From contig JAJYEP010000004.1 in NCBI GenBank assembly GCA_021785735.1, forward strand, positions 1-41,936: 41,936 nucleotides of DNA, in the 5' to 3' direction. A program made the position numbers and the translations under genes. Origin of the DNA: Thermoplasmata archaeon. GTDB taxonomy: Archaea > Thermoplasmatota > Thermoplasmata > Thermoplasmatales > Thermoplasmataceae. Shown piece by piece: positions 32,155 through 40,194 of this stretch (position 1 is its first letter; each line of letters begins with the position of its first letter). The notes below the pieces were generated by a model. It did not search any database. It was not told where the DNA came from and worked only from the letters and a program-made list of their open reading frames with translations.

Positions 32155-33084
32155 ATGTTAATAAACGAAGTAAATCTTTACTTGGATAAACGTGGCAGAA
32201 TATCGTTCAACTTTGAAATAGACAACCAACCAATATGGAACGCTGCCGATCTTACTTCTATTGCAAAAATCAGAATTACAAAAAATGGTGGTTTCATCAT
32301 TGTGAACAATAAATCAGATGTCTCTAATCAGGACGTTATTAGCGAGTTCCAGAGAAGAAATGCGATCCATATAGGGGATTCGTGGTCACTGAATCTCGAT
32401 ATCTCAAACACGACGCTCCTCTCCTTTTTCAAAGATTTGATATCGATCCCATCCGTTGTTGTCGACTCGATCATAATTAGGGGAACGAAATTCTTTGTTG
32501 ATTTCAGGTATCACCATAATGATCATTCAGCTTTTTCTACCCTTGCATCTATGCATATCAATAAGCTAAAGGATTTTGCTTTTCCATTTCTTGGTAATTC
32601 AGGCGGCCTGATTCAGAGCCTGAAGGAACTATCCAATGAGATACCGTTGCAATACATGGAGGTTGAATCTACAGTCCCTCCAAACTTTATGGAAATCTCC
32701 AAAGACCCGGTCATAGCTACATTTGGCAACAACTGGCTCCGCGAGATAAAGTATCTCCAGGAGGAGAAGACGTATGCAGTCTATTACGAAAAGAACCAGC
32801 TTTTAAAGGAAGGAATGGACACAAAGGAAATATCAAGAAGTGAAAAGATCTACGAAACAACCTTTTCCAACCCGATTATAACATTTATATACAACAAATG
32901 TTCTGATGGATCTATCGCCCCTCTTGGGATGGCTCAAAAATTATTTGGCAGGACTTTCAGCTATTATGTCATAGTCCCGAGAATGCATCTTGAGGGATTC
33001 ACGAAAATTCTGATGGAAGCCTTCTCAACGATGAAAGAATGGAAGATGAGTCTGACATATAGTATGCGAATTGATCGGCTTTAA
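32155..33084 (+). CDS. Protein of unknown function (309 aa)
   Basis: Long ORF, TATA-like aaataaatatatta about 25-30 nt upstream of ATG; no recognised family. Confidence 0.75.
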   Translation: MLINEVNLYLDKRGRISFNFEIDNQPIWNAADLTSIAKIRITKNGGFIIVNNKSDVSNQDVISEFQRRNAIHIGDSWSLNLDISNTTLLSFFKDLISIPSVVVDSIIIRGTKFFVDFRYHHNDHSAFSTLASMHINKLKDFAFPFLGNSGGLIQSLKELSNEIPLQYMEVESTVPPNFMEISKDPVIATFGNNWLREIKYLQEEKTYAVYYEKNQLLKEGMDTKEISRSEKIYETTFSNPIITFIYNKCSDGSIAPLGMAQKLFGRTFSYYVIVPRMHLEGFTKILMEAFSTMKEWKMSLTYSMRIDRL

Positions 33085-34682
33085 TTTTTTTCATCATTTT
33101 TAATTTCATTTATTTTTCTCTCTTTGTTCTTTTCAGCTGAAAATCTTCCCAAAGGATAATCTCCTGTGTCAACGAATTTCACAATTTTTCCAAGAATCGG
33201 ATGAATTTTCATCACAATATCGTACATCTCCAGCGCAATTTTTCTGATCTCGGGGTGTGCCGAACTCCCGGATCTGAGTTCAATGAAATAGCATAATTCT
33301 TGAAGATTAATCTTCACGATGAAAACCTGATAGCATGCAAAAGGAACCACATACTGAGCTAAACTCTCGCCGGAGATTTTTCTGACTTTCTCCCACAGTT
33401 CAAATGCCCCCTTCATTCTCTCTGTGTATTGGTCCAGAATTTCAGGAAAATCTATTAGCAATGGTGGTACATAAAATCCAGAAACAGGTGTGATGTCTCT
33501 TTTTATAATTGTTAGAATTCTATGCCTCTGGAACTCCCTGAATGTTCCAAGAGAACAGGTTACCTGGAACAAGTACTCGGGTATCTCGAAGAATCTTCCG
33601 CCCTTCTCCCTGCGGTTATTCCTGGCGTTGCCTATCTTATCTATGTAGGAGTCGACATATGCTCTTTCCGCATCCTTATCTGTGCTAGAGGGTATTTTTC
33701 CTGTCTCATCAAATTTAAGTGCAGAATAAATTCTGTGCATCTCGTCCTCCTCACTTCTAAAATCGATGATCTTTACACCTGTGAAACTCTCTGAAGGGCT
33801 GAAAGTTCGAGGCCTTTCGTTGCGCTCGGTAATGTATTCGGTCATTCTGGAGCCGTAAATATTCGTGGCGTTTTCCATCAGGTTAGGAAATTCCACATCA
33901 AGTTCATTATATAGATCAGACGATATTCTCTGAAATTCCGGGATTTTCACGGCGTTCAATTTTTGAATGAGATATATGAAAGATCGTGCATTACCGGAAA
34001 TTCCAAGATTAGTAATCGTGCTGACCGGCAAACAGGCTCTCGCCTCATCAAGTGCCCTCGCTCTGACAGATCTATTATAAACATTCTTAGCGGACCTGAT
34101 GCTCTTTTCATCCTTCAAAAATGGAAACATTACTTCCTCGGAAGAAAGTGCATCCTTGAAACTGAACCCCTCAATAGGAAACCGTGACCTGTAATATTGT
34201 TCGGCAACAGAAAGAACCTTTTCATAAAGGTCAAACAATCCTCTGCAATGTGAATCATATTCCGATGCTAATGGATCGGCAATACCAATATATGCGGCGT
34301 GCAGAAACATACCTTCGAAGTTTTCATATTTCACGTATCTTGAAGACTTTTCAAGAAACGAGAGTCCTATCCTGCTTCCCTCAATGTACCAAGTGATGAG
34401 GTTCGATATGTTTTGCAACCCAACTTGGGCCGTGACAAGTTCAGAAACAGACTCGTCACCATATTCAAGGAATACCTTCCTATAGAACTCCTCACCTCTT
34501 TTATCATCGTTCAGAAACTCCTTCCTGTAAACGTTTCTTATATCAAGTTCAGAAGTTCTGCTGTATCTTGACATAAGTGCTCCCCTGTCAATCATTTTGC
34601 TTAATTTTATTATGAACACATTTTTTTCAGTGTTTGAAAAACCTTCCATTGAGATACCTTTCCCGATGAAGCATGATAACAT
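33081..34682 (-). CDS. Two-domain ThyX-like protein (FAD-dependent thymidylate synthase family)
   Basis: N-half YGDESVSELVTAQVGLQNISNLITWYIEGSRIGLSFLEKSSRYVKYE; C-half LFQVTCSLGTFREFQRHRILTIIKRDITPVSGFYVPP resembles the ThyX RHR region. Confidence 0.78.
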   Translation of the reverse strand: MLSCFIGKGISMEGFSNTEKNVFIIKLSKMIDRGALMSRYSRTSELDIRNVYRKEFLNDDKRGEEFYRKVFLEYGDESVSELVTAQVGLQNISNLITWYIEGSRIGLSFLEKSSRYVKYENFEGMFLHAAYIGIADPLASEYDSHCRGLFDLYEKVLSVAEQYYRSRFPIEGFSFKDALSSEEVMFPFLKDEKSIRSAKNVYNRSVRARALDEARACLPVSTITNLGISGNARSFIYLIQKLNAVKIPEFQRISSDLYNELDVEFPNLMENATNIYGSRMTEYITERNERPRTFSPSESFTGVKIIDFRSEEDEMHRIYSALKFDETGKIPSSTDKDAERAYVDSYIDKIGNARNNRREKGGRFFEIPEYLFQVTCSLGTFREFQRHRILTIIKRDITPVSGFYVPPLLIDFPEILDQYTERMKGAFELWEKVRKISGESLAQYVVPFACYQVFIVKINLQELCYFIELRSGSSAHPEIRKIALEMYDIVMKIHPILGKIVKFVDTGDYPLGRFSAEKNKERKINEIKNDEKN

Positions 34683-36279: not shown

Positions 36280-39069
36280 TTATTTTATCTTCTTCCTTTG
36301 AAAATGAAACCCTTTGTGCAGGGGGCTGAAAAAAACGGATCTTGCCCTCCCGTACTCCACCACGACCAAAACTGAAAATAAGATTATAAGTATTGAACGG
36401 TAGCTTGCATCTAAAAAGACCAAAGCTGGATAAAGTGGTCCATGGTTGTCGCTTGAGTAAACCAATATTACAGTTGTATTTCCGCTCAATTTGACAGTTA
36501 GTGGTATACCGCTTGTTGAAAATCCTGCTATTCTAACGCCCGAAATAGTATATTGACCCATAGGTTCGATAAGAGTTATCTGCGATAATCCTGACAGAGA
36601 GACATTCCCTGAAACATTAACCCCCCAAATTACCCCCTCAGGCAAGCCGCTGCTTTTTATCACGAGACTAGCTGTCTTGGGTATATAATCGACTTTGACA
36701 TTTATTAGTATCTCTGACACATTAACTGTCTTGCCGGGGAGATCGCTAAGATAGGTGCCCGTGTTCATGAAGGAAACATAGTAACTTCCTGCTGGGAGAC
36801 TTATGTTTATCTGGTGCATGGTGGTCGAATATTCCTTACCGTCTATAATCACCCCCCAGGAGTAGTTTTCCGGCAATCCTGATTCCGTGAGACGCAGGTC
36901 ACCGTAATGCACTTCTGGTGCTATGGAGAGTGTTGATGTGTTTGACAATGTGTTAAAATAGTAATATGGCAGTATCAGTTTTCCGGAGAAATTTGCAGAA
37001 TTATCAGGCTGTACATAAAAGCTCGTTGCAAAAGACTGCATGGGCTTCAGATCAATTCCTGTGAAGTTTCTATTCGAAAAGATAGACCCGTATTCTGATT
37101 CCTGGACAGTTATATCGTCTATTGAGGAGTTCCCAAAATTTGTAACGTTCAGAAAAACAAGTTTATTGTTTGCAGAATAGGTGAAATTGATAGAGGCAGA
37201 GACTGATTTAATAAAATCAACCGGAAAAGTGAACGTTTGGGCAGTCCCATTCAGAATCTGGATATTCGATTTCAGTACCAGGCTAATATTAGAGTTGCCG
37301 GGTCTTATTCTGTTATATCCGGAAACCGAAAGATTGAGCATGGATCGATTGTTATCAATAGTGGTGTTTCCCGAAGTGATCAGTGTGCCGTTGTCAAGGA
37401 ATAACAGTTCATACGATACAGCTAATCTATAGGGGTAATTTGTATACACTATTGCTGAAATTACGCTGCTAGGACCCATTATAACAGATGTTGTGAGCGG
37501 TATAACCTTCAACGCTGGCAATGTTGGAGTAACATTGAGATATATTCTTGATGAATTTTTGAACGGAAAACTGGGAACCGAGAAATAAAAGAGCTGAGTA
37601 TTAATGGACAGAGCGTAATCACCTAAATACAGCGAATTGTTCGCGCCCGTTAACACATTGCTGATAACCGGGAGTTTACAGGAACCGTTTGTGAATGTGA
37701 GTCCACCAAACAGGCCATATCCGGTGAGCGCATGGTATTGAGTGTCTATTATGTTTTGAGAAATGGCGTAATCAGTGGTGTTCATTTCACTCGGGCCAAG
37801 TTGAAAATAAACCTTATTCAAGGGCGTTCCGTCGTCGTAAGCGAGAATCCTGATGATTCTGCCCAGTAGCAGGGATGAATTATCTGACACCATGAAGGCT
37901 GACTGATTATTTTCTGATGATAACATATCGTAGCTGATTCCGTAATCGTAAACTTTGCTGTTGTTAGTTACGAGTGCATAATCTTTACGCCCGTTGGGAT
38001 TGCCGTATGAGTTTCGGAATGGCATATTGTTTATTCCCAGTTGTGAATCTTCGATGTACGCAGATGAATTTGAGAATAGATCACGGAAATACTCAATGCC
38101 TATCCTGTCAACGCTGTCGTTAGATGTGATTCTGATTGAGACGTTCCAAATGGTCGTGTTGGAATATTTTGCAGGGTCATAATGGTAATACACTGTCGTT
38201 CTGGACTCCATGGACGATCCATTCAACTGGAGCCTTTCGACCGGAACGCTCACATTCAACCAGGAATACTGCGTGACAGATCCAGTATTGTTGAAATTAA
38301 GTTTTTTTATGGTATTTCCAGATACATTCATCAGGAGGTAGTTTCCGTTGAAGGGATTATTGCCAGAGTATTCAATGCTGAGATTTACAATTCCCGAGAT
38401 GGCAGACTTAGAATGCAGGAACTCGGGTGACATGGTTATGTTTCCAGATTTGAATACCGGCGAATACTTGTTGTATTCAGCTAGTGTTTCGAAAGTCGTT
38501 GCGTTCCCTGAACTTTCAAGACCGGTGAGGCTAGATTTGAATAAAATTACTTGTGAATGAATGAATATAAAAGTGGATCCATGATGGACAGACTGGTTTT
38601 CACCAAATGTGGAATTGTACCCATAGAGGCTTGCATTGGTGCTCTTCATAATTCCTGCAAAGTAAATTCTCGAATTGTAAGTCGTTAGGGACGCACGAGA
38701 ATCGTTGTACCCATACAGTGAAAGGGAAGTGACATTTCGTAATTCATTTCCAATGAATACGGTGCTGTTGTAAAGATACACAGAACCGCTTACATTAACC
38801 ATCGATTCCGTACCCTCGACATACAGTCTCACATTGACAACTGATAGCATCTCTCCCTTTTTAACATCAAGATTTCCATTTAAATAATAATCAGAAAACG
38901 ATAGATTACTGCCTATATGAAAGACTACGTTTTGCGATTGGACACTGTGATACAAAGTAGTGGTCTCATCTGAAAGTGGAGACCAAGAACCGTTACTGCT
39001 GCATGGAAGAAACACAATCAGCAGCATAGCTGAAAGAATTATCGCAGTAATAACGTATACCAATCTCAC
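36280..39069 (-). CDS. Large secreted, membrane-anchored surface protein
   Basis: N-terminal signal/TM, many N-x-S/T sequons, two C-terminal repeats (LTESGLPENYSWGVIIDG; IKSSGLPEGVIWGVNVSG), C-terminal TM. Confidence 0.82.
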   Translation of the reverse strand: MRLVYVITAIILSAMLLIVFLPCSSNGSWSPLSDETTTLYHSVQSQNVVFHIGSNLSFSDYYLNGNLDVKKGEMLSVVNVRLYVEGTESMVNVSGSVYLYNSTVFIGNELRNVTSLSLYGYNDSRASLTTYNSRIYFAGIMKSTNASLYGYNSTFGENQSVHHGSTFIFIHSQVILFKSSLTGLESSGNATTFETLAEYNKYSPVFKSGNITMSPEFLHSKSAISGIVNLSIEYSGNNPFNGNYLLMNVSGNTIKKLNFNNTGSVTQYSWLNVSVPVERLQLNGSSMESRTTVYYHYDPAKYSNTTIWNVSIRITSNDSVDRIGIEYFRDLFSNSSAYIEDSQLGINNMPFRNSYGNPNGRKDYALVTNNSKVYDYGISYDMLSSENNQSAFMVSDNSSLLLGRIIRILAYDDGTPLNKVYFQLGPSEMNTTDYAISQNIIDTQYHALTGYGLFGGLTFTNGSCKLPVISNVLTGANNSLYLGDYALSINTQLFYFSVPSFPFKNSSRIYLNVTPTLPALKVIPLTTSVIMGPSSVISAIVYTNYPYRLAVSYELLFLDNGTLITSGNTTIDNNRSMLNLSVSGYNRIRPGNSNISLVLKSNIQILNGTAQTFTFPVDFIKSVSASINFTYSANNKLVFLNVTNFGNSSIDDITVQESEYGSIFSNRNFTGIDLKPMQSFATSFYVQPDNSANFSGKLILPYYYFNTLSNTSTLSIAPEVHYGDLRLTESGLPENYSWGVIIDGKEYSTTMHQINISLPAGSYYVSFMNTGTYLSDLPGKTVNVSEILINVKVDYIPKTASLVIKSSGLPEGVIWGVNVSGNVSLSGLSQITLIEPMGQYTISGVRIAGFSTSGIPLTVKLSGNTTVILVYSSDNHGPLYPALVFLDASYRSILIILFSVLVVVEYGRARSVFFSPLHKGFHFQRKKIK

Positions 39070-39165: not shown

Positions 39166-40194
39166 TCACTTCAAGGGTCTCTTTATCTCCCTGTTCTTCA
39201 TCTCCATTTCCACCAGATAATCCCTGAAATTGACCTTCGACCATAATTCGCTCTTTCGTTTCAGGTACTCCATGTCGCCTGCGTTTATGTAAATCCTCGT
39301 TTCTTCCCCTGAAAGTTTGTACCGTTCATATTCTTTGAAAATTATGGATTCAATCATTGATTCCACGAACTGCACGTACCTGTTCTGAGAGCTCACACTA
39401 TTTCCTGACTTCTTAGCAGTGCGGAGGATGGAGGCTGCAAAGAGTGTTATTCCAAGAAGGACTTTTCTAGGAAACTTTTCAAGCTTGATTCTGAGCAGTA
39501 TGTCCCTATAAGTAAAATTGCAGCCGATAATGCAGTCCCTGAAGGACAGTATATTGGTTAGTGTTGGTATGATTTCTGCAACCTTGCTATAATAAACGGA
39601 ATTCACGATATTGTTTCCAGAGAAGAGGTACGAAGGTGGGATAATGGTCTTCAACACGGGAAAAACCAAGATTCCAAAGTTTAGACTTATTCTTCCCAGA
39701 ACGTCAATTTCCGAGCACTGTCGTAAATTTTTCCACCCTCCGATCTCGTTGACGAGTGACCTTGGTATTATCAGCATGGATGTGAATACCGCTTTCTTCT
39801 CGTTATTGGCAAGAAATACTGATATTGTGTCTGCAAGTTGCAGGTCATAGATAGTTGATGATTCAAAAATAATGATATAGTTTCCCGTGCTCTTATTTAT
39901 GAGGTTTGAATAATCCTCACCAACATTGCCGGTTGATCTAATAATCGATACGTTTTCGTATTTGCCGCGGATATCAAAGGCAACCAATGATGAGCGTACT
40001 GAACCTGGTTTAATGCATAAAATGATCTCATAATCTCTACCAATTTCCTCTGCTATAGCTTCTATACTGCTTATGGACTGTTCCAACCTGAAGGCGGTGT
40101 CATTTACTGTAGACAGGAATGAAATTTTAGTTATAACTGCATTTTCGGGTGAAAAGAAAGAAGGTATTTTTACAAAATCTGCCAGATCTTTCAA
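39166..40194 (-). CDS. Divergent GT-A/family 2 glycosyltransferase-like protein
   Basis: FLSTVNDTAFRLEQSISSIEAIAEEIGRDYEIILC, GNVGEDYSNLINKSTGNYIIIFESST arrangement resembles GT2, without a clear DXD. Confidence 0.65.
   Translation of the reverse strand: MKDLADFVKIPSFFSPENAVITKISFLSTVNDTAFRLEQSISSIEAIAEEIGRDYEIILCIKPGSVRSSLVAFDIRGKYENVSIIRSTGNVGEDYSNLINKSTGNYIIIFESSTIYDLQLADTISVFLANNEKKAVFTSMLIIPRSLVNEIGGWKNLRQCSEIDVLGRISLNFGILVFPVLKTIIPPSYLFSGNNIVNSVYYSKVAEIIPTLTNILSFRDCIIGCNFTYRDILLRIKLEKFPRKVLLGITLFAASILRTAKKSGNSVSSQNRYVQFVESMIESIIFKEYERYKLSGEETRIYINAGDMEYLKRKSELWSKVNFRDYLVEMEMKNREIKRPLK

Follow-up and report, generated by a model that had tools for sequence, protein, structure and literature searches.

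A gene in a 41,936-nucleotide stretch of DNA from a Thermoplasmata archaeon (contig JAJYEP010000004.1, positions 1 to 41,936; the window) encodes a protein with two ThyX domains that is, in all likelihood, a flavin-dependent thymidylate synthase: a fused pseudo-dimer retaining one of the two active sites of the ThyX dimer. ThyX converts deoxyuridine monophosphate (dUMP) to deoxythymidine monophosphate (dTMP) with CH2-folate, flavin adenine dinucleotide (FAD) and NAD(P)H, and the canonical single-domain enzyme is a homotetramer with four sites. A first-pass annotation had described the open reading frame (ORF) as a double-domain ThyX-like protein with its catalytic motif split between the halves, and had proposed an internal pseudo-dimer formed by duplication and complementary degeneration. 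Residues of canonical ThyX are numbered here as in Thermotoga TM0449, and the features of the gene are collected in Table 1.

Table 1. Features of the double-domain ThyX gene in the window (aa, amino acids)
Feature	Position	Strand	Remarks
Double-domain ThyX gene	33081..34682	-	533 aa, ATG start; two Thy1 domains
N-terminal ThyX domain, residues 1-292, "monomer B" residues	33807..34682	-	Thy1 63.1 bits
C-terminal ThyX domain, residues 293-533, "monomer A" residues	33084..33806	-	Thy1 88.5 bits
N-half half-motif EGSRIGLSFLEKSSRY, residues 101-116	34335..34382	-	E111 = E86, S113 = S88, R115 = R90, Y116 = Y91; R78 lost
R215 = R147 (dUMP phosphate), N-half only	34038..34040	-	Equivalent to PolB Arg166'
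N231-A-R233 = N163-A-R165 (FAD side), N-half	33984..33992	-	Family alignment
D76 at the canonical H53 position	34455..34457	-	Family alignment
C-half half-motif REFQRHR, residues 382-388	33519..33539	-	R382 = R74, E383 at Q75, R386 = R78, H387 = H79, R388 = R80
R470 = R174 (activates dUMP N3), C-half only	33273..33275	-	PolB Arg193; PBCV-1 Arg182 of monomer A

The whole protein matched Pfam Thy1 (PF02511; cut-off 24.8 bits) with 147.1 bits, its sole significant Pfam match, and each half alone also exceeded the cut-off, bearing out the double-domain description. In profile comparisons the C-terminal half (C-half) matched single-domain ThyX with an expect value (E) of 2.4e-22, and the matches of the double protein to ThyX entries in the PDB fell in this half. 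An AlphaFold2 (AF2) model of the whole chain, built on 59 aligned relatives, had a mean predicted local distance difference test score (pLDDT) of 90.9 and a predicted template modelling score (pTM) of 0.89, and its order of strands (E) and helices (H) occurs twice, for example as E85-93/H94-101/E107-111 and E369-377/H378-385/E391-394. Foldseek gave a probability of 1.00 for AF2 models against ThyX crystal structures; the whole chain matched TM0449 with a template modelling score (TM-score) of ~0.7 by target, and the N-terminal half (N-half; residues 1-292) modelled alone (pLDDT 89.0) likewise matched ThyX best (M. tuberculosis ThyX; E 9.5e-8, TM-score 0.66 by target). The repeated fold, together with the ThyX fold of the N-half on its own, indicates two ThyX domains rather than one. 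All 59 members of alignment A2 matched the NCBIfam ThyX equivalog TIGR02170 at E <= 0.001. Met12 (34649) is a possible alternative start; the AF2 model has low confidence over residues 1-11, and conservation across the family starts at F15.

Which residues each chain of a ThyX dimer contributes to a dUMP site is known from crystal structures. PolB, a UMP/dUMP methylase (4p5a/4p5b) and close ThyX homologue, shares the ThyX fold, and its structure assigns contact residues to monomers; unlike the window protein it is a single-domain homotetramer, and it accepts uridine monophosphate (UMP) besides dUMP. In PolB, one monomer contacts dUMP through Arg82, His83 and Arg86, and the other through Glu94', Ser96', Arg98' and Arg166'; Arg193, printed without a prime, touches the pyrimidine O2 (PMC5003785). 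The fixed spacing of the motif equates Arg82, His83, Arg86, Glu94', Ser96' and Arg98' with TM0449 positions 74, 75, 78, 86', 88' and 90'; we mapped Arg166 and Arg193 to positions 147 and 174. In PBCV-1 ThyX, monomer A supplies Gln75 and Arg182 on one side of the ligand and monomer B supplies Ser88 and Gln89 on the other (PMC3498832). In ThyX, R174 activates dUMP, with Ser88 and Tyr91 proposed as catalytic helpers (PMC8316439).

In the window protein, the dUMP-contact residues are distributed across the halves in the same way: R78 and R174 lie in the C-half and E86, S88, R90 and R147 in the N-half, with Q75 replaced by Glu. Both half-motifs quoted in the first-pass annotation are in place, the N-half having E-K-S-S-R-Y without RHR and the C-half RHR without E-x-S-x-R, the E, S and R expected after RHR being lost. 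Judged from the aligned residues, the monomer A role (R78, R174) is given to the C-half of such proteins and the monomer B role (E86, S88, R90, R147) to the N-half. The retained site holds the catalytic residues, R174 activating dUMP and Ser88 and Tyr91 being proposed to aid catalysis. Since each half retains residues that, in the ThyX dimer, reach one dUMP site from different monomers, the partition strongly supports the proposed origin by duplication and complementary degeneration, with one composite site. The window protein has in its chain the same set as canonical ThyX (R78, R174, E86, S88, R90, R147 and N163/R165, the last two on the FAD side in ThyX structures), and both halves share the canonical fold. 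It differs from canonical ThyX such as TM0449 in being two fused domains with the motif divided between them, in apparently keeping one dUMP site where a dimer would have two, and in the replacement of H53 and Q75 in its clade.

The division is shared by double-domain ThyX proteins (doubles) generally. In a residue table of 118 distinct doubles from Thermoplasmatales, Thaumarchaeota, other Thermoplasmata, bacterial plasmids and phages, the N-half always carries E86, S88, R90, Y91 and R147 (118 of 118), which the C-half almost never has. The C-half has R78 and H79 in all 118 and R174 in 117 of 117 (one more row ends at a contig edge), and R174 does not occur once in the N-half. The C-half also keeps R80 except in Bacillus and Paenibacillus, which have RHNR there, and R74 except in these two genera and in three Thermoplasmata families, designated f15, f24 and f29. 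The N-half alignment around R78/H79 is uncertain by one residue; the conserved N-half R104 probably corresponds to R80, and the Arg aligned to the N-half R78 column in Thaumarchaeota may be a neighbouring residue. A continuous RHRxxSxxxxSxRY was found in none of 111 distinct doubles, compared with 40 of 41 single-domain ThyX proteins of the same class, so that a full canonical motif stands in neither half; one intact canonical half was thereby rejected. A frameshift or assembly fusion of two genes was also rejected, the same open frame recurring in more than 100 independent sequences. Random loss of the blocks R74/R78, E86-R90, R147 and R174 would give the correct partition in about 1 case in 8. 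The correct partition is therefore a passed consistency test that draws its evidential weight from its conservation, and because it is conserved throughout the doubles it reflects neither chance nor decay.

Relatives were collected by an alignment-based search of genome contigs, which found 333; a single-sequence pattern search of the same contigs found none, and a pattern search of viral contigs with a phage double as query gave no match. Thy1 was detected in 69 of 77 genomes of the window's GTDB family, including all 35 good ones, and the family's Thy1 genes have two matches in one open frame of ~500-590 aa. Among the sister families of the order, two have a single canonical ThyX and a third (f4) has the double. 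Named loci place the double in Acidiplasma, Thermoplasma sp., E-plasma and I-plasma, in Nitrosopumilus, Nitrososphaera and other Thaumarchaeota, on plasmids of Euzebya, Miltoncostaea, Bacillus and Paenibacillus, in a record labelled Parabacteroides, and in phages Tunturi_5, Vibrio XC31, BONAISHI and Microcystis LMM01. A Vibrio phage match listed with two annotated features, as if two half-genes, is actually one 461-aa ORF. Families f15, f24 and f29 (seven loci) encode a less diverged double with the same split, whose sequences may represent an earlier stage of divergence. In a tree of the doubles, Thaumarchaeota stand beside Thermoplasmatales, and the bacterial forms branch outside them; the phage sequences, on very long branches, could not be placed. 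The thymidylate synthase family phrog_36506 (Microcystis phage LMM01 MAP_020) matches a 491-aa double-domain phage protein over its full length, and this protein has the same split as other doubles; phrog_36506 is nevertheless very distant in sequence, and its match to the window protein is weak (41.9 bits).

Two further observations were made among these genomes. One draft genome (G032; 86% complete, 3% contamination) carries two different double-ThyX genes (C51:2187-3482 and C43:18204-19544), which may be a second copy or a mixed bin. Another family of the class (f13, five loci) has a canonical-type ThyX with an intein-like insert directly after RHRTA; at locus L230 the insert begins with CLAEGT and ends with THN before SVNEYSARY, and so lies inside the catalytic motif.

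The double appears to be the only candidate for thymidylate synthesis in its lineage. A genome search for a canonical thyA or thyX, suggested in the first-pass annotation, found neither further Thy1 nor ThyA in the window's own genome (77% complete), and ThyA and canonical ThyX were both absent from all 77 family genomes; a further canonical ThyX or ThyA outside this locus was accordingly rejected. ThyA was also not detected in 15 Thaumarchaeal and six f4 genomes, whose sole Thy1 is the double. Of the 35 good family genomes, 15 have a TK1-type thymidine kinase and 20 lack it, and it occurs in 3 of 19 genera, in a search confined to kinases of this type; most family genomes therefore cannot rely on TK1 salvage. 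Thymidylate kinase and FolD-type genes were found in the genus. In Tunturi_5, a Tunturiibacter jumbo phage, the double adjoins a gene for dCMP deaminase, with dUTPase nearby; both enzymes make dUMP, and by its gene content the arrangement is a putative dUMP-to-dTMP cassette. The Euzebya double lies near dCTP deaminase and the Parabacteroides-labelled double near dihydrofolate reductase. The lack of another detected synthase, the frequent absence of TK1, the presence of thymidylate kinase and FolD and these gene neighbours together make thymidylate synthesis the likely job, and the window protein is very probably a working thymidylate synthase. The non-thymidylate chemistry that the first-pass annotation had also entertained is disfavoured, since no other thymidylate-synthase gene was found in the lineage of the double.

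We propose that the protein arose by tandem duplication of one ThyX domain. The canonical dUMP site lies between two chains, with R78 and R174 coming from one and E86, S88, R90 and R147 from its partner; after duplication the C-half would have become restricted to the first role and the N-half to the second. The N-half x C-half site would be retained, and the mirror site lost along with its substrate residues. FAD and dUMP would bind at the composite site and dTMP would be made as by ThyX. Each chain would have one site, built from its own two halves and not from those of two chains, and chains would pair further to complete the FAD/folate pocket; the assembly is expected to differ from the canonical homotetramer with four sites. 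The composite site could instead form between the N-half of one chain and the C-half of another, giving an obligate dimer of domain-swapped doubles. We regard this arrangement as the less likely one, though worth serious consideration: the confidence of the single-chain AF2 model over both domains (pTM 0.89) suggests that the halves are packed in a fixed manner within the chain.

Several observations weigh against identification of the fused pseudo-dimer as a thymidylate synthase. The TIGR02170 cut-off was missed (80.7 vs 87.9 bits), and no activity measurement for any double ThyX was found in the literature. The H53 position is Asp in 99 of 99 Thermoplasmatales and Thaumarchaeota doubles and His in 15 of 19 others, and Q75, like H53 an active-site position, is Asp or Glu in the same 99 of 99. 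The f15, f24 and f29 doubles and those of Bacillus and Paenibacillus keep H53, and all but one keep Q75 (6 of 7 of the f15/f24/f29 loci). Canonical H53 stacks on folate or flavin (PMC11940539). Crystal structures of the H53D mutant of TM0449 with FAD and with dUMP are available (PDB entries 4kar, 4kas), and we found no activity data for it in the literature. Because both positions have changed in the archaeal clade, chemistry altered in detail is conceivable. The Thermoplasmatales and Thaumarchaeota doubles would then be pseudo-dimers that take the one-carbon unit from a different donor (a modified archaeal pterin or free formaldehyde) or go through the steps in a different order, which we consider rather unlikely. 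A more radical departure, for which the same two replacements and the PolB precedent of a ThyX fold serving another substrate, UMP (PMC5003785), could be cited, would be a flavin-dependent methylase or oxidase acting on a substrate other than dUMP, with thymidylate coming from an unrecognised enzyme or salvage. This is improbable given that the window clade keeps every dUMP-contact residue but Q75, that the phage double adjoins dUMP-making genes, and that no family genome has ThyA or canonical ThyX while TK1 is missing from more than half of the good ones. Least probable of all, and by a wide measure doubtful, is a decayed, inactive ThyX retained for a structural or regulatory role: part of the motif is missing from each single half, the score lies under the equivalog cut-off, and Corynebacterium glutamicum has an atypical ThyX that is dispensable for thymidylate (title of PDB entry 3ge9), but the catalytic residues are invariant in 118 sequences from archaea, bacteria and phages, and the lineage has no other detected thymidylate synthase.

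The window neighbourhood of the ThyX gene is ordinary and gave no extra functional hint. A Ta1207-family gene of unknown function (32155-33084, + strand) has a tail-to-tail 4-base overlap with the end of the ThyX gene, and two ORFs on the - strand (36280-39069, 929 aa, and 39166-40194, 342 aa) had no Pfam match at E 0.001.

Duplication within ThyX is already in print: Valas and Bourne (2009, PMC3224940) report a duplicated ThyX domain in most Chloroflexi and say that the duplication "has not been characterized". By that description the Chloroflexi protein is like the window protein in having two ThyX domains per chain; the relevant passages of that paper differ from the present analysis in containing no motif analysis. 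No earlier description of the complementary split was found in the searchable open-licence literature, and no solved structure of a double ThyX was found in the PDB. Because annotation pipelines score the double under the ThyX cut-off, it can easily be taken for absent or degenerate. With one site expected per chain and each residue changeable at one place only, the double would offer simple access to the disputed mechanism of ThyX. If the proposal is correct, nature has here plainly joined the subunits of a homo-oligomeric enzyme in tandem and divided them residue by residue into complementary halves that keep one composite site. The double appears to be the sole thymidylate synthase of the Thermoplasmatales and of the ammonia-oxidising archaea examined.
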